Shown here: positions 52,886-64,000 of the stretch, in pieces | Layout: every line of letters starts with the position of its first letter | Position numbering within the stretch: position 1 is the stretch's first letter | Source: Rhexocercosporidium sp. MPI-PUGE-AT-0058 | Lineage: Eukaryota > Ascomycota > Leotiomycetes > Helotiales | Reading direction: 5' to 3' | DNA: 64,000 nucleotides | Assembly (NCBI GenBank): GCA_020746875.1 | Contig: JAGTJL010000002.1 | Location: 930,001 to 994,000, forward strand | The notes under the pieces: generated by a model | Database searches by the model: none | The model's input: only the letters and a program-made list of their open reading frames with translations | Told to the model about the DNA's origin: nothing | Translations under genes and position numbers: made by a program

Positions 52886-53823
52886 CTAGGCGGAGAGAAA
52901 GATATAGAGCGCAAAGATTGAGAGGAGAGACGTCGTCAATAGCAACTTCGTCGAGAGGCACCAATTTCGTAGCTCCGGGCGAAGAGCTGAGCATGCAAAA
53001 TCTGGCAAGACCTTACGTAGGTCACAGACTACCTGCTCTGCAACAGCATAGCGTTCCGACCAGCAGCGTCTAATAATCTCGCCCAACCCCGGTGGTGAGA
53101 GCTGTTGTAGATCTGGGTATGTGTGGCTGCGAAACAACGCAGCGATGTCATTGTCCGATTTCCCCTTGTAAAGCGTTTGCCCGGTGCTGATTTCGTACAA
53201 AGCCGTACCTAACGCAAATATATCATCCTTAACGTCAGGTTTCTCGCCCAGCCTCGGTCGTGGTCTGGCATATCGCGGTTTAGGAAACTCGAGAATCTCG
53301 CTGCCATCGATGCTGGGTCCGCCAAAGTCGCACAGCGCAAGAGTGCCATTGTCTTGGACGAGAAAATTATGGCAGCCCACATCGCAGTGAATAACGGTTT
53401 TCGAATGAATGTATGCTACTGCTTCTGCTACTTGTAAGAGCCATCTCAATAATCAGGTGAGCATATAATATTGTATATCAATACAAAAGTTACTTACTCA
53501 AGTCTCCTTTGTATCCAACAAGGGGTATTGAGGCTCTTCTCCAATGTTCCTGCCTCCAGGAACTGCAGCAGCAGCATAGGCGTCGTTCGTCCTCCGGAGA
53601 GAAAGACTGCTTGCCGATGGTATTTCAGAATAAGATGATGCTCGCCGAGTCGTTCGTATATCCTTTGTTCGATGCGTATGTGGTGTGATGCCTCGTCGAA
53701 CGGAACCTTGACAGCAAGGCTGGTTCCAGCAATTCTGCTGACGCATGCGAAGGTCCCATACCCGATAGCAGGGTCAATCTGATCAGGCCTGATTTGATTA
53801 AGGTCGAGTGCAACGCAATTCAT
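52886..53823 (-). CDS. Protein-kinase-like protein with C-terminal membrane segment
   Basis: Exons 53498-53823 and 52886-53444 (complement) give 294 residues from MNCVALDLNQIRPDQID. Glycine loop IGYGTFACVSRI, Lys in LAVKVPFDE, hinge LLQFLEAGTLEKSL, catalytic loop YIHSKTVIHCDVGCHNFLV (HCD in place of HRD) and metal-binding CDFGG are all present. The activation segment is short and proline rich (EFPKPRYARPRPR). A D-DIFALGTALYEI motif follows. The last 20 residues (LLLTTSLLSIFALYIFL) are hydrophobic, suggesting a tail anchor. The fold is compact and resembles fungal kinase-like proteins often found near HET genes. Catalytic residues are kept apart from HRD to HCD, so activity is possible. It is divergent from the HET gene, with starts 370 bp apart. 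Confidence 0.82.
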
Positions 53824-54150: not shown

Positions 54151-54193
54151 CCAACCTTGTAGATAGTAGGCTGCAAATCGTGCTTAGTCAAAA

Positions 54194-57100
54194 ATGTCCG
54201 AGATTCTGACGCGATGGAAATCGCTCCTAGTCAGACAGCGTTGGAGAGAAGCGTTGTTCGTGGTACGTTTAGTTGATACGATAAGAGGATATAGACACGC
54301 TAATTATTTGGCTGTAGGACGTAAGTAGACTTGAATATCGCAGACATGCGGCTTCTGCTGACCGTGTCTTGCTCGTGGTTGTAGGACGTAAGTAGACTTG
54401 AATATCACAGACGTGCGGACCCTGTTGACTGTGTCTTGCTCGTGGTTGTAGATCGTAAGTAGACTTGAATATCACAAACGTGCGACTCCTGCTGACTGTG
54501 TCTTGCTCGTGGCTCTAGCGTGTAAGTAGACTTGAATATTACAAACGTGCGGCTCCTGCTGATCGTGTCTTGCTCGTGGTTGTAGGATGTAAGTAGACTT
54601 GAATATCACAGACGTGCGGCTTCTGCTGACCGTGTCTTGCTCGTGGTTGTAGATTGTAAGTAGACTTGACTGTTATAGATTTGCGGCTCCTGCTGACTGT
54701 GTTTTGCTCGTGGTTGTAGGACGTAAGTAGACTTGAATATTATAAACGTGCGGCTCTTACTGACTGTGTTTTGCTCGTGGTTGTAGATCGTAAGTAGACT
54801 TGACTGTCACAGACGTGCGGCTCCTGCTGACCGTGTCTTGCTCGTGGTTGTAGCGTGTAAGTAAACTTGAATATTACAAACGTGCGGCTCCTGCTGATTG
54901 TGTCTTGCTCGTGGCTTTAGCGTGTAAGTAGACTTGAATATCACAAACGTGCGGCTCTTGCTGATCGTGTCTTGCTCGTGGTTGTAGGACGTAAGTAGAC
55001 TTGAATATCACAGACGTGCGGCTTCTGCTGACCGTGTTTTGCTCGTGGTTGTAGATTGTAAGTAGACTTGACTGTTATAGATTTGCGGCTCTTGCTGACT
55101 GTATCTTGCTCGTGGTTGTAGCGTGTAAGTAGACTTGAATATTATAAACGTGTGGCTCTTGCTGACTATGTCTTGCTTGTGGTTGTAGGACGTAAGTAGA
55201 TTTAAATATTACAGATGTGTGGCTCTTGCTGACCGTGTCTTGCTCGTGGTTGTAGCGTGTAAGTAAACTTGAATATTATAAACGTGCGGCTCCTGCTGAC
55301 TGTGTCTTGCTCGTGGCTCTAGCGTGTAAGTAGACCTGAATATCACAAACGTGCGGCTTCTGCTGACTGTGTCTTGCTCGTGGTTGTAGGACGTAAGTAG
55401 AGTTAAATATTATAGATTTGCGGCTTCTGCTGACCGTGTCTTGCTCGTGGTTGTAGATTGTAAGTAGACTTGACTGTTATAGATTTGCGGCTCCTGCTGA
55501 TTGTGTCTTGCTCGTGGTTGTAGCGTGTAAGTAGACTTGAATATTACAAACGTGTGGCTCTTGCTGACTGTGTCTTGCTTGTGGTTGTAGGACGTAAGTA
55601 GACTTAAATATCACAGATGTGTGGCTCCTGCTGACCGTGTCTTGCTCGTGGTTGTAGCGTGTAAGTAAACTTGAATATTATAAACGTGCGGCTCCTGCTG
55701 ATTGTGTCTTGCTCGTGGCTCTAGCGTGTAAGTAGACTTGAATATCACAAACGTGCGGCTCCTGCTGACCATGTCTTGCTCGTGGTTGTAGATCGTAAGT
55801 AGACTTGACTGTTACAGACGTGCGGCTCCTATTGATCGTGTCTTGCTTGTGGTTGTAGATCGTAAGTAGACTTAAATATCACAGATGTATGGCTCTTGCT
55901 GACCGTGTCTTGCTCGTGGTTGTAGCGTGTAAGTAAACTTGAATATTATAAACGTGCGGCTCCTGCTGACTGTGTCTTGCTCGTGGCTGTAGATCGTAAG
56001 TAGACTTGAATATCGCAGACGTGCGGCTCTTGCTGATTGTGTCTTGCTCGTGGTTGTAGCGTGTAAGTAAACTTGAATATTACAGATTTGCGGCTCCTGT
56101 TAACTGTGTCTTGCTCCTGGTTGTAGGGCGTAAGTAGACTTGAATATCACAAACGTGCGGATCCTGTTGACTGTGTCTTGCTCGTGGTTGTAGATCGTAA
56201 GTAGACTTGAATATCATAAACGTGCGACTCCTGCTGACTGTGTTTTGCTCGTGGCTCTAGCGTGTAAGTAGACTTGAATATTACAAACGTGCGGCTCTTG
56301 TTGACTGTGTCTTGCTCGTGGTTGTAGATCGTAAGTAGACTTGAATATCATAAACGTGCGGCTCTTACTGACCGCGTCTTGCTCGTGGTTGTAGGACGTA
56401 AGTAGACTTGACTGTTATAGATTTGCGGCTCCTGCTGACTGTGTCTTGCTTGTGGCTGTAGAACGTAAGTAAACTTGAATATTATAAACGTGCGGCTCCT
56501 GCTGATCGTGTCTTGCTCGTGGTTGTAGGACGTAAGTAGACTTGAATATTACAGATTTGCGGCTCCTGCTGACCATGTCTTGCTCGTGGTTGTAGCTCGT
56601 AAGTAGACTTGAATATCACAGACGTGCGGCTCCTGCTGACCGTGTCTTGCTCGTGGCTGTAGCATGTAAGTAGACTTGAATATCACAGATATACTTCGAC
56701 CTGTGTTTATTTATTAATTCAACGCAGGCTTCTCGACAGTGGCAGTATACGATTGATAATGAATTTGCTACTGCTTTGTTTACGACATCCTCCTGGAATT
56801 TCTCTTTGCAACAGCCCCTGTCTGATGAATTTTGTATCGCATGCAATAATATCCTTGGTTATAGTCGTCTTGTTATAGTCTCTGAATTTCGGACAAGTAT
56901 GAGCAATTGTCCGCTCTGCAGACTCCTTCTTTCTGCTCTTGAAAATGTCAATACCATAGATAGCGCGGAAATTTGTATTCTCAGAGAGGGGTCTGCTTTG
57001 AAAGTAAGGGGCGGGCCACGACTGCTTAGAATTTGTTCTAACTCAGGTATGAGTGCCTTTTTATCACTTTCAGCATATCAATTTCTAACTCCTACTAATA

Positions 57101-58668
57101 GGATCCTCCGATACGAACTACAACGACGTTCAGATCGGATTCCCGGTATTGCCTGAGATCGCAAGTCCTATCTATTTTGACTTGCTCCGTGCATGGCTTC
57201 GTAGGTGCGATGAGTCCCATGAATGCAATGGCGATGGCGCAGAGTCGGAGAGAACATTACCGAGCAGACTCCTGTACGTTGGAAATTCCGACCCGAATAT
57301 CTTGGCTCTCCACAGCACTGCAACCCAAATCGAAATTGAACGTTATGTTGCTCTGTCGCACTGTTGGGGTGATTTATCTGAAGAAGTCAAAGAACAGTTT
57401 TGCAGTAGTACCAAAAATATCTGTAATCGACAGGAAGGATTCGGTATCGAGGTCTTACCCAGAACTTTCCAGGACGCCATTCGAGTAACCCGAGAGCTCG
57501 GCCAGCAATATCTCTGGATTGATTCACTCTGTATACTCCAAGATGACAAAGGAGATTGGGAACGTGAATCTAAGCTTATGGAATGTGTCTTCTCCTCGGC
57601 TTACTGTGTTATCGCTGCAAGTTCAGCTGTCGATTCTGAGGCAGGATTCCTCAAACGAGACGTTACCGGCCGCTATATCCCGATTGTAGGTGCTATGGGA
57701 AGACAGATATACATCTGTGAAGATATGGATGATTTCGAGAATGATGTCGATAAAGCTCTGCTCAACACAAGAGGGTGGGTACTGCAAGAAAGAGTCTTGT
57801 CCCGTCGAACTATCCACTTCAGCGCCAATCACACCTATTGGGAGTGTGGGGAAGGAGTCTGTTGTGAGAACCTGAATAGGCTAAAGAGGTGAGATGATCT
57901 TGAGATATTCGTGCCATAATCGCTGTTCTGACTCTAATGTCGTCTTTTAGTCCAAAGTGGAAGCAATACTTTGTGCTGGACCCGATCTTCCCGAAGCGTC
58001 TTCTGGAAGCGGGAACTGAACGTACTGTCGACTTTCTCAACAGTCTATTCGAAGGCTATTCAATGCGTGGCCTTACACAGCCAACGGACAGGGTCACTGC
58101 AATATTTGGGTTACAAAGTCGTATTGAAAGTACCTTGGGCTGTGAAGGGAGGTATGGAGTTCTAAAAGATTTTTTGCACAGAAATCTTCTGTGGCAGCGG
58201 CACGGCACGGAGAAGATGGAGCGGATCGCATACAACAATCTGAAGGCTCCGTCTTGGTCTTGGATGGCATACCGAGGAGGCATCAAATTCGTCGACGTTT
58301 CCTTCGCTACATCGGATGACATTCGCTGGCAAATAGAATTGATATTCGACGGGGAGCGGAACTACGCTTTAACTGGGTCTTTAGGCAAGTTTTGGAAGTG
58401 TACCATAATCCAAAAGGGAACGCGATACGCTATATTGAACTGGAGAAAATCTGAAAGAGGATGGCTGCAATTCGACGTTGAGGGTAGTACGGATCTTAAT
58501 ACGCAGAGATGTGTTGTTGTTGGACGTGCAGGCCGAGGACCAGAGATCAAGTACTTCATATTGGTTGTACGGCCGACAGTCATGAATGGAGAGTACGAAA
58601 GAGTTGGTGTTGGATTGATTCAGGAGAGCCATGTGTCGAAATTGGAAGGCGCTATACGAATTGTTTAA
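54194..58668 (+). CDS. HET-domain protein with a 5' region made of intron-like repeats
   Basis: Certain part: exons 56728-57046, 57102-57888 and 57951-58668 join in phase to 608 codons including the stop. They carry an N-terminal Cys cluster (CIACNN, CPLCRLLL), the HET core (YVALSHCWGDLSEEV at about 57344, IEVLPRTFQDAIRVTRELG, YLWIDSLCILQDDKGDW, SAYCVIAASSA, RGWVLQERVLSRRTIHF, YWECGEGVCCE) and a C-terminal region with SWSWMAYRGGI. HET domains trigger programmed cell death when incompatible partners meet. Inferred part: the frame is open upstream to the acceptor at 56726-56727 but has no ATG before MSNCPLC. The ATG at 54194 opens MSEILTRWKSLLVRQRWREA and ends in phase 0 at a GTACGT donor (54263). 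Between lies the 67-bp array, whose 64-nt units look like introns separated by single codons, all in phase 0. Any combination of splices keeps the frame. The 5' exon and splicing need transcript evidence. Confidence 0.75.
54321..56665 (+). repeat. Tandem array: 35 x 67 bp intron-like units
   Basis: Units start at 54321 + 67n (n = 0-34) with no indel; a 36th donor at 56666 leads to an acceptor at 56726-56727. Each unit begins GTAAGTA, ends TAG at position 64 and has CTGAC, CTGAT, TTGAC or TTAAC with A at position 41 (all units inspected). That is the order and spacing of a fungal intron: donor, branch A 23 nt before the 3' G, acceptor. Positions 65-67 are a 3-base spacer. Counting the one before the first unit, the 36 spacers are CGT 12, GAC/GAT 10, ATC/ATT 10, and one each of GGC, AAC, CTC and CAT, none a stop. 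A 402-bp higher-order period (six units) is visible: units 11-15 and 17-21 (numbering from 0) differ at 13 sites, all transitions. Confidence 0.95.
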
Positions 58669-61456: not shown

Positions 61457-61946
61457 GAATCTAAAATGTGCAAATGATATGAATCCATGTCATATCTGCG
61501 ACATGAAAATACCAAGGCCACAGGGCGGTGAAATTAAAGTAGAAGCACTATTAAACCAAAAGTACAACTAAGTTAGAAGTACAATCAAATCAGAAGTACA
61601 ACTAGATTAGAAGCACAACCAAATCAGAAGCACAATCAAATCAGAAGCACAACTAGAGTAAAAGCACAACCAAATCAGAAGCACAATCAGATCAGAAGTA
61701 CAACTAGATTAGAAGCACAATCAAATCAGAAGTACATGAGTTGAGGTCATGAAGCGAGGTGGTCACTGTGGGGCGAGGTGGTCTGTTAAGCGATACAGTC
61801 AACTGCCCTTTTCTTCATCAAATACCTAATTCACAGTGCTGTGGCGTCCTGCATCAAGTCTATCAACCCATGAAGTCTCATCGAGAAGAAGAGCAAACTA
61901 AAGGCGTCACGCTTCAGGGTATGAATTCGCTGCAAACAAATTGTTG
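61457..61946 (+). repeat. Dispersed repeat B, right copy, with 17-bp minisatellite
   Basis: Same element as 16384-16763. Here it carries about ten tandem copies of a 17-bp unit (agaagtacaactagatt and variants) at 61568-61735, against two or three in the left copy. The right edge is again ...gcaaacaaattgttg. Confidence 0.8.
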
Positions 61947-62149: not shown

Positions 62150-62860
62150 AGCTGGAGATGGATAAGCAGATGGATGAGCAGGCAGATAGGAAAGTAGAGG
62201 AGTTATCAGTGTATCAAGCAAGACAACCACTGCCTCGTCCTTTCCCTCTATTACTAGCAAGATACAACATTTGCATCACGATAGTAAGGTCTTGCCTCCA
62301 AACATAGCATAAAGTAACTAGCAAGGTCAAAAAGAATCAAATCAGATAGGGATAGCAATTTGATGATCTAATATGAAATAGAACGCAGTCTATTTTGTCG
62401 AACGCACAAACCTTGGTTCCCGGAGCTTGACGCTATGCACTGTCTCTACGTGGCCTTTGAAATGCTCTAAGTGTTGGAGAACAAGCCCCTGAGACTTGCA
62501 GACTGGGTGATAACACTCTATCTGGGCGTGTGGATCTCTTCCTTTGAGGTGAATCCGTTCAACGTGATCCATCATCTTCGCAGGGCGGCAAAAAGAGCCT
62601 ATCCGCTCCTCATAGCTCTTCGATTCGTCGCCAATACAAATTGGGCACTGGCTCTTGGCAAGGACAAGAGGGAATGGCTCGAGATCGGGTGATTCCTCCT
62701 TGATGAGAGGTGGCTGCGGTAGGGCAACCCGGAGTCGATACCGTCGGGGCACTTCGCGGCGGCGGCAGAGGGCGACCATAAGACCAGCAGAGTGGATCCG
62801 GCGCGCGACAATATCTTGTGGGGTGATATCCGCGACATGAGTGCAGATAAGTTCGGCCAG
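62150..62860. repeat. Dispersed repeat A, right copy
   Basis: Same orientation as 1318-2160. Covers the 3' flank and the C-terminal coding part of the DUF3435 gene at the window edge. This copy is less diverged, and its coding frame is intact. Confidence 0.75.
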
Positions 62861-64000
62861 CTGCGCCCGTTCGGGAATCTGATGTTCAACCACAGGCTCG
62901 ATATACTCATCCTCCTGCTGTCCACAGTTCTGCCTCTCAATATCTTCCAGCGGGCGACGGCGGAAGTAGTCGGCTCGGTACTCCTCAGAGATGATATTTC
63001 GCCGCCGAGTCCGGGCAGTACCGATCTCCGCGGTAAGACGCCGAACTTCCGCCTCGACCTCCGTGCCCTGGATCCTGTAAGCTCCAGCTTTTAGCTGAGC
63101 CCGTTGCTCCTCGAGATCGACGATACTGGGGTCTGGGGGAAGCGCTGCAAGAACGTCGTCCGGCACGTGAACTGGAGCGCGAGGATCACGCATGAGGCTC
63201 ATGTGAGTAAGCATGCGTAGGATGCCATCTGCAGATGGTCGCTCGAGGACAGCAGACAGGACGTCGAACGGCACCCTTTCATTGATGTAGGCTCCGTTAT
63301 ACACTGCCGAGTTCGGGTTGTGTCGCATAACCTGATCTCGAACCGCATCCGTGGCAGTACCTAGACACAGAGAAAAGGCTCCATTAGTAGAGTGGTCTAT
63401 ATTTGTCATGCCACTGAACACTTACGGTCAACGACATTGGCCGTCCCACGACGGAAGCAATAGCTGGTCAGCTTCTCCAGGAAGCCCGCCGCAAGCCCTA
63501 GGCGGTTCAAGCAGTCCCTGAATTGAGAGTAGGTGAGAGCGGGCGTCGGAGAGGTACCCACACCGTCAGCTGCCTTCTCATCCTGACGGAAAATTGGAGT
63601 CTTGAGCATTTCTTGCTTCCAGGATAGTGGTGTAGACACAACCGGGCCCCACACCTTGTGCTCAAAGACCCGTTCGGCCGTAGTCAGGCTCGGTGCCTCG
63701 AAGGCCTCATCTGCGATAACCAGGGAGACGAGGTGGGTGATCGGACAGAAGATTGGGTCGTCTACTTCAGTGAAGAAGAATATGGTGCTGCCATAGTTTG
63801 TCAGTTCGCTTTCGGAACACATATGGTAGAGAATGGGTTCGTTGACTCACGGCTTTGGGCGTCTCTTGGCTCCCTTGTGGTGGGCCAGCTTGACCTCCAT
63901 CGCAAGCAGATCCAGCTCTCCCGCTACAGGGTTCCGCACCACCAGGAGGCGGACGTCTTCGTAGCAGAGCGCGTCGAATTGTCTGAGTTCCGTTTCAACA
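62390..64000 (-). CDS. DUF3435 recombinase-like protein, C-terminal part
   Basis: Complement of exons 62390-63360, 63426-63787 and 63851 to beyond 64000; introns of 65 and 63 nt. The frame is unbroken. In order: LRQFDALCYEDVRLLVVRNP (window edge), FTEVDDPIFCPITHLVSLVI, LTSYCFRRGTANVVD with the conserved Arg of the recombinase core, AVRDQVMRHNPNSAVYNGAY with candidate His and Tyr, MSLMRDPRAPVHVPDDVLAA, a basic coiled region (EVRRLTAEIGTARTRRRN) and a C-terminus with CPICIGDE and HVERIHLKG zinc-finger-like motifs ending FVRSTK. The family includes captains of Starship elements, but many degenerate copies exist outside them. Whether the N-terminus is intact cannot be seen. A truncated relative is at 1680-2160. 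Confidence 0.85.

Follow-up and report, generated by a model that had tools for sequence, protein, structure and literature searches.

The window analysed here, the whole 64,000-nt stretch of the Rhexocercosporidium sp. MPI-PUGE-AT-0058 genome (contig JAGTJL010000002.1, positions 930,001 to 994,000), contains a HET-domain gene with an intact frame, inside which lies a long tandem array of intron-like units. The parts of the gene model are listed below in window coordinates.

54194-58668, + strand: HET-domain gene, intact frame, with the array inside
54194..54262, + strand: exon 1, 23 codons (MSEILTRWKSLLVRQRWREALFV), ending in phase 0
54263..54317, + strand: intron 1, 55 nt, unique (GTACGT...TAG), only its last bases resembling the unit
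54318..54320, + strand: first 3-nt microexon, GAC (Asp)
54321..56665, + strand: 35 units of 67 nt, each a 64-nt intron (GTAAGTA ... A41 ... TAG) plus one codon
56666..56727, + strand: last intron of the array region, 62 nt, its 5' 24 nt matching the unit and the rest diverged, ending in CAG
56728..57046, + strand: first large exon 3' of the array, starting in phase 0 (ASRQWQY...)
57047..57101, + strand: ordinary intron, 55 nt (GTATGA...CTAAC...TAG), predicted by eye
57102..57888, + strand: exon with the HET domain
57344-57790, + strand: HET domain, PF06985, 104.9 bits against a cut-off of 22.5
57889..57950, + strand: ordinary intron, 62 nt (GTGAGA...CTGAC...TAG), predicted by eye
57951..58668, + strand: last exon, up to the stop codon at 58668

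The 35 units follow one another with donors at 54321 + 67n, the last at 56599, and the initial annotation was right in describing their number, their intact donors and acceptors and their constant length. Every unit begins with GTAAGTA, has an A at position 41 and shows TAG at positions 62-64, and the intron body is exactly 64 nt in 35/35, each time followed by a spacer of 3 nt. An independent run of Tandem Repeats Finder delimited the repeat at 54309-56689, with a period of 67, 35.5 copies and 0% indels. The branch had been given as CTGAC-type with its A at position 41; while the A is present throughout, the exact CTGAC occurs in only 23 of the 35 units, the remainder reading CTGAT (7), TTGAC (3), TTGAT (1) and TTAAC (1). 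Similarly, the range of 54263-56727 assigned earlier to the array covers the full units at 54321-56665 but also includes two introns that are not units (54263-54317 and 56666-56727). A length of 64 nt is typical for a fungal intron. A GT donor, a branch A, an AG acceptor and a fungal length, the features of a spliceosomal intron, are thus found in all 35 units, and the earlier view of each unit as a plausible complete intron stands. Stwintrons (nested twin introns) are described as introns of which a splice element is interrupted by another intron, whereas here the donor, branch A and acceptor are complete within every unit. The 35 bodies are mutually different sequences, which makes an assembly stutter unlikely, and an unspliced coding repeat is ruled out, since none of the three forward frames stays open across the array for more than 25 codons. 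The unit has 36 matches in the 62.7-Mb assembly, all within its own array; the multiplication is therefore tandem and not dispersed, as had been proposed, and a dispersed introner is rejected.

Including the one at 54318-54320, the array region has 36 three-base spacers, and the corresponding codons (the first microexon and the 35 unit codons) are DDIRDIDIRRDIRDRRDIRDRRIIRIRGIRIDNDLH, with 12 Arg, 10 Asp and 10 Ile among the 36. A higher-order pattern is present at 6 units, the lag with the lowest mean body difference among lags 1-14, and at this lag 13 of 29 codons are equal; the pattern is a sign of exchange in blocks. Downstream of the array, at 61535-61736, the window holds a second, unrelated tandem repeat with periods of 17, 34 and 51 bp.

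An in-frame TAG, read directly, lies upstream of exon 1 at 54185-54187. The array has phase 0 on both sides and the gene model is in frame throughout, encoding a protein of 630 aa without and 666 aa with the 36 microexons. The 36 single-codon exons that one-by-one splicing had been predicted to yield would thus, at the level of the sequence, fit in frame with an intact HET gene. Any set of units can be skipped with the frame kept, while a single retained 64-nt intron shifts it, and the frame alone cannot tell splicing one by one from removal of the whole array. HET is the sole Pfam match in the 630-aa protein (residues 211-359), and the composition of a NACHT-ANK protein is thereby not seen. 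At its 3' end the array appears to meet a genuine exon: the protein similarity of a decayed paralogue, C16, begins at residue 24, where the array ends (weak, E 0.004), and is followed by a W and a CxxC...CxLC motif (Cys 59, 62, 84 and 87) common to six aligned sequences, C16 being without one Cys. A kinase-like gene (Pfam match at 52886-53449, minus strand) is located just upstream of the array gene in divergent orientation, and an open frame with a DUF3435 match (PF11917) is found at 62390-63421 on the minus strand; DUF3435 is linked to mobile elements.

Six HET paralogues in the same genome have the plan of the array or its remains, with other unit sequences (periods of 71 and 74 bp) and other copy numbers, the copy number across paralogues ranging from 1 to 35. 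The earlier view of intron multiplication in tandem is supported for the window but incomplete, given these six paralogues, one of which has unrelated introns. On the reverse strand of L051, C4 contains 12 units of 68-74 nt and a truncated last unit; C12b (L052) contains 25 units of 74-90 nt and a last one, and C23 (L054) contains 8 units and a last one. The arrays of C4, C12b and C23 are of a common 74-bp repeat type different from the window unit, and the C4-type unit has 50 matches, all at four HET paralogues. A distant link between the window unit and the C4 unit was considered, yet the aligned 3' halves gave P 0.03, uncorrected for 78 pairs, which is too weak. In all units of C4, C12b and C23 the spacer is 3 nt, and in C12b this holds for 25/25 units even though the body length differs from 71 nt (78, 80 or 87) in 9 of the 25. 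According to the codon lists, the segment would be Pro-rich in C4 and Glu/Arg-rich in C12b. Of the more eroded members, C58 has one decayed unit and one partial unit, while C16 (L053) has an AT-rich decayed array of another kind with a period of 71 nt, in which 23 spacer sites were scored with a pattern that assumes the 3-nt spacer. The C16 array is split by an insert of ~2 kb (L053:5500-7556) with near-perfect terminal inverted repeats at a TA-like site, which looks like a DNA transposon.

When aligned to the window protein, C21 has no in-frame stop and C4 and C12b have stops only at residues 392-401, the site of the last intron of the window gene; in the window, C4, C12b and C21, the aligned HET region is therefore without a stop outside a predicted intron site. 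The same region has 3 stops in C23 and 18 in C16, and in C58 stops run through most of it; many splice sites are altered in C16 and C58. Within ~10 kb of the C4 and C12b HET genes, arrays of a 126-bp repeat (WD40 in L052) and NACHT or NACHT-like matches are found. Overall, the Rhexocercosporidium genome has at least 150 HET and at least 73 NACHT matches, a large self/non-self repertoire.

Single-codon exons are also predicted outside the arrays. No tandem repeat array was found in C21 (L055), and four 3-nt exons (TAC, AGA, TTT and ACT) lie there between unrelated introns. This chain is preceded by a 448-codon frame that encodes a protein-kinase domain and reaches a donor in phase 0, and the kinase frame is seemingly joined to the HET body through the chain of single-codon exons (L055:7397-8740). 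The kinase and HET parts of C21 apparently form one gene, the splice from the last codon into the HET body being putative. In C4 and C12b, 3-nt exons (GAG, GAA and GCG) occur beside introns that are not repeats, and an ATG exon in phase 0 lies ahead of the arrays. Because of the C21 chain without a repeat and the non-repeat neighbours in C4 and C12b, the single-codon exons appear to exist independently of the arrays, which themselves look like the product of amplifying one codon-plus-intron unit.

The 3-nt spacing was examined with a scan for acceptor-donor links of the form YAG-N(k)-GTRNGT on both strands of 28 non-overlapping sequences (209,059 bases), from which L001-L020 (inside the window), L021-L028 and L033 (which overlap with the window or with L051-L056, or represent fragments of the same genes) were left out. 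There were 113 links at k=3 versus 12-23 at each other k from 0 to 12. Of these, 96 belong to the family (36 in the window, 27 in C12b, 15 in C4, 10 in C23, 4 in C16 and 4 in C21), and the 17 elsewhere are at about the background level of the other k. Chains of at least two k=3 links with a branch-like motif numbered nine (36, 16, 15, 9, 6, 5, 2, 2 and 2 links), the longest being the array of the window, whereas at the other values of k only two chains were seen, a 2-link one at k=2 and another at k=11. All nine k=3 chains map to the window or to the C4, C12b, C16, C21 and C23 loci. No k=3 chain was found in 21 other HET loci (L029-L032 and L034-L050, with ~1.5 kb of flank each) or in L056, and none in six NACHT loci (30 kb, drawn from the at least 73 NACHT matches).

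Conservation of the splice sites was assessed by comparing ten splice columns (donor 6, branch 2, acceptor 2) with base-matched other columns of the same array. In the window, 0 variant splice cells were observed versus 19.0 expected (P 0.0034); the corresponding values were 1 versus 2.8 in C4 (P 0.36), 1 versus 11.4 in C12b (P 0.016) and 0 versus 5.8 in C23 (P 0.033). The combined P for the window, C4 and C12b is 0.0014, although the common ancestry of C4, C12b and C23 means that these tests are not independent. The irregularities in C12b are one broken donor (ATAAGT) and one CTGAG branch. At the 23 sites of C16, acceptors are intact in 9, donors in 14 and pairs in 5, counted with a loose pattern that can miss units, and 2 of the 23 spacers are stop codons. 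In C23, with its stops in the HET region, conservation of the splice columns does not track an intact gene; C23 may be a young pseudogene, or the contrast with pseudogenes may be weaker than it looks. Among the 72 unit codons of the window, C4 and C12b there is no stop, which is weak evidence, since column shuffles expect 2.1 stops in C12b (P(0) 0.05) and 0 in the window and C4.

Averaged over sites, variability within the unit is highest at the codon, although single body columns can equal it. In the window, per-site diversity is 0.68, 0.68 and 0.51 at codon positions 1 to 3, whereas the body averages 0.142 and reaches at most 0.51; the C12b codon gives 0.70, 0.60 and 0.53, with a body average of 0.125 and a maximum of 0.65. 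The third codon position is invariant in C4 (0.17, 0.64 and 0.00; body mean 0.041, maximum 0.55) and in C23 (0.64, 0.75 and 0.00; body mean 0.159, maximum 0.75). The kind of substitution differs as well, with transversions making up 558 of 1117 spacer differences (50%) versus 654 of 4548 in the rest of the unit (14%) in the window, 352/547 (64%) versus 454/2307 (20%) in C12b, 43/53 versus 67/178 in C4 and 24/39 versus 48/271 in C23. Even between units with 1-3 body differences, the amino acids differ in 21 of 36 pairs in the window, and between C4 units with identical 71-nt bodies they differ in 4 of 7; few codons in the window fall between GAC, ATC and CGT in sequence. Such behaviour is not expected of a neutral stretch in one big intron, and the simplest reading of these patterns is that selection acts on the codons. 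Part of the diversity could stem from exchange breakpoints close to the codon, or from founder codons that have been separate from the start. Given this highest average variability of the codon, the repeated entity is better seen as a codon plus an intron than as an intron with a leftover spacer.

The best explanation, to which we assign a probability of roughly 70%, is that the HET-domain gene is intact and that 36 single-codon exons encode its N-terminal linker, the codon-plus-intron unit having been amplified in tandem to 35 copies. It has to be weighed against an arrangement in which the array is one composite intron, exon 1 being joined to 56728 or most microexons being skipped, so that the 2.4 kb are removed whole or recursively and no codon is left. 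Here too the frame is kept, and the outer introns are the most diverged members, as expected if only the outer sites mattered. However, the internal donors and acceptors vary less than base-matched columns do, the codons have a substitution spectrum that differs from that of the bodies, and a codon chain exists in C21 without any repeat array. Moreover, internal sites have decayed in C16, though not in C23, and 2.4 kb is far longer than the predicted 55- and 62-nt introns of the window gene, which together make a composite intron unlikely. HET domains trigger cell death in fungi, and it could be speculated that the introns are removed singly but act as a throttle, their number ensuring slow or leaky expression of a potentially lethal protein with the codons as mere by-products. 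While the variation in copy number among paralogues would agree with such a role, it predicts neither the top average variability and transversion richness of the codon nor the single codons of C21 without an array, and we consider it slightly less likely than the composite intron.

It is improbable that the array belongs to a 5' untranslated region or falls outside the gene, with translation starting from Met 81, the first in-frame Met after the array, even though the HET domain (residues 211-359) would still be whole. This is opposed by the similarity of the C16 protein from residue 24, weak as it is, by the shared W and cysteines, and by the phase-0 ATG exon before the arrays of C4 and C12b. 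A plain minisatellite that looks intron-like by chance would account for a tandem repeat with a 6-unit higher-order pattern, but hardly for repeats in paralogues that are unrelated or nearly unrelated and yet share splice signals and 3-nt spacing, nor for the excess of k=3 links in the spacer-length control; chance was rejected on these two grounds and retains a very small probability. A structured RNA was likewise rejected, as Rfam gave no match for the array, inverted repeats of 16 or more were absent, and four of the 35 units, when tested for folding, did no better than shuffles.

For the 36 single-codon exons to be read, a stepwise course of splicing can be proposed. Fungal introns are recognised as short donor-acceptor pairs. 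By such recognition, each donor would be paired with the acceptor 64 nt on and the introns would be removed one by one; since a 3-nt exon leaves hardly any room for two splice complexes, removal is probably stepwise, and each splice would set a fresh codon before the next GTAAGTA. The mature protein would in this way gain a segment of 36 residues, mainly Arg, Asp and Ile, ahead of the HET region. Skipping of any set of microexons would leave the frame intact, while retention of a 64-nt intron would disrupt it. The segment looks like a linker, because the C21 chain sits between a kinase frame and a HET body. At the DNA level, unequal exchange probably alters the number of codons, given the 6-unit higher-order pattern and the copy numbers of 1 to 35 across paralogues, and the outcome may be a fast-changing modular recognition or linker segment. 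The sequences show directly the anatomy, the open frame, the arrays of the paralogues, the conservation of the splice sites and the diversity of the codons; from these we infer splicing, inclusion of the codons, their alternative inclusion and a role in recognition. A more far-reaching version, in which the introns serve as a recombination substrate that adds, loses and shuffles codons frame-safely, the codons are diversified by selection, and alternative splicing yields many in-frame variants, would amount to a codon-by-codon diversity system; it is offered tentatively, at somewhat less than an even chance.

Several known systems resemble parts of this organisation. In Tuber melanosporum, NACHT-ANK (nank) genes are reported to have codon-sized (3-bp) microexons, by the tens in one account, and alternative splicing (Iotti et al. 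2012, Fungal Biol. 116:261, as cited in PMC10197012, PMC4986451 and PMC3689799). As in these citing accounts, many 3-bp exons occur here in a fungal gene family of the self/non-self type, 36 of them predicted in the window, while the family is of the HET-domain type, with an apparent kinase exon in one member, and not of the NACHT-ANK type, with splicing deduced from sequence features. The initial statement that no equivalent has been described was therefore too strong: going by these citations, codon-sized microexon genes are already known from Tuber, and it is the genomic form that is unusual here. The micro-exon genes (MEG) of schistosomes have exons that are mostly a multiple of three and mostly 15 bp, with introns of 0.1-5 kb, in the account of PMC10526429. 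They share with the window gene, as predicted, a series of very short exons in multiples of three that could be skipped in frame, but the introns of the latter are 64 nt and tandemly repeated, and its exons 3 nt.

With introners and introner-like elements, described in PMC4457414 and PMC9860276 as near-identical introns dispersed in unrelated genes, the arrays have in common near-identical introns of spliceosomal type in many copies, whereas the window unit is confined to its own array and the C4-type unit to four HET paralogues. It has been demonstrated that introns can arise through tandem genomic duplication, in which, as reported in PMC3443670, an exonic segment with splice sites is duplicated. 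Here, too, a segment carrying splice sites was apparently duplicated in tandem and its introns multiplied with it, yet this segment is a codon-plus-intron unit, present 35-fold in the window, with other units in the paralogues. Fungal NLR/NWD genes have repeats under concerted evolution and positive selection (PMC4986451), and the likeness extends to tandem units in recognition genes, polymorphism in number and diversity at chosen codons. Unlike the protein-coding WD, ANK and TPR repeats of that account, however, the window repeat is almost entirely intron. Among the open-licence literature matches listed, no report of tandem codon-plus-intron arrays or of codon-sized exons in HET genes was found, and both the arrays and the HET setting appear new within the open-licence literature searched.

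Should the codons be included by splicing, the gene's 36 exons of 3 nt would represent an extreme architecture and would put the spliceosome to the test on exons too short for binding on both sides. The arrays show intron multiplication through tandem duplication in several paralogues with different units. As gene predictors probably miss such arrays, related cases may be present but unannotated. For the HET genes of Rhexocercosporidium, the arrays suggest a route by which a protein segment may evolve codon by codon in a self/non-self gene family, with introns serving as frame-safe recombination spacers.
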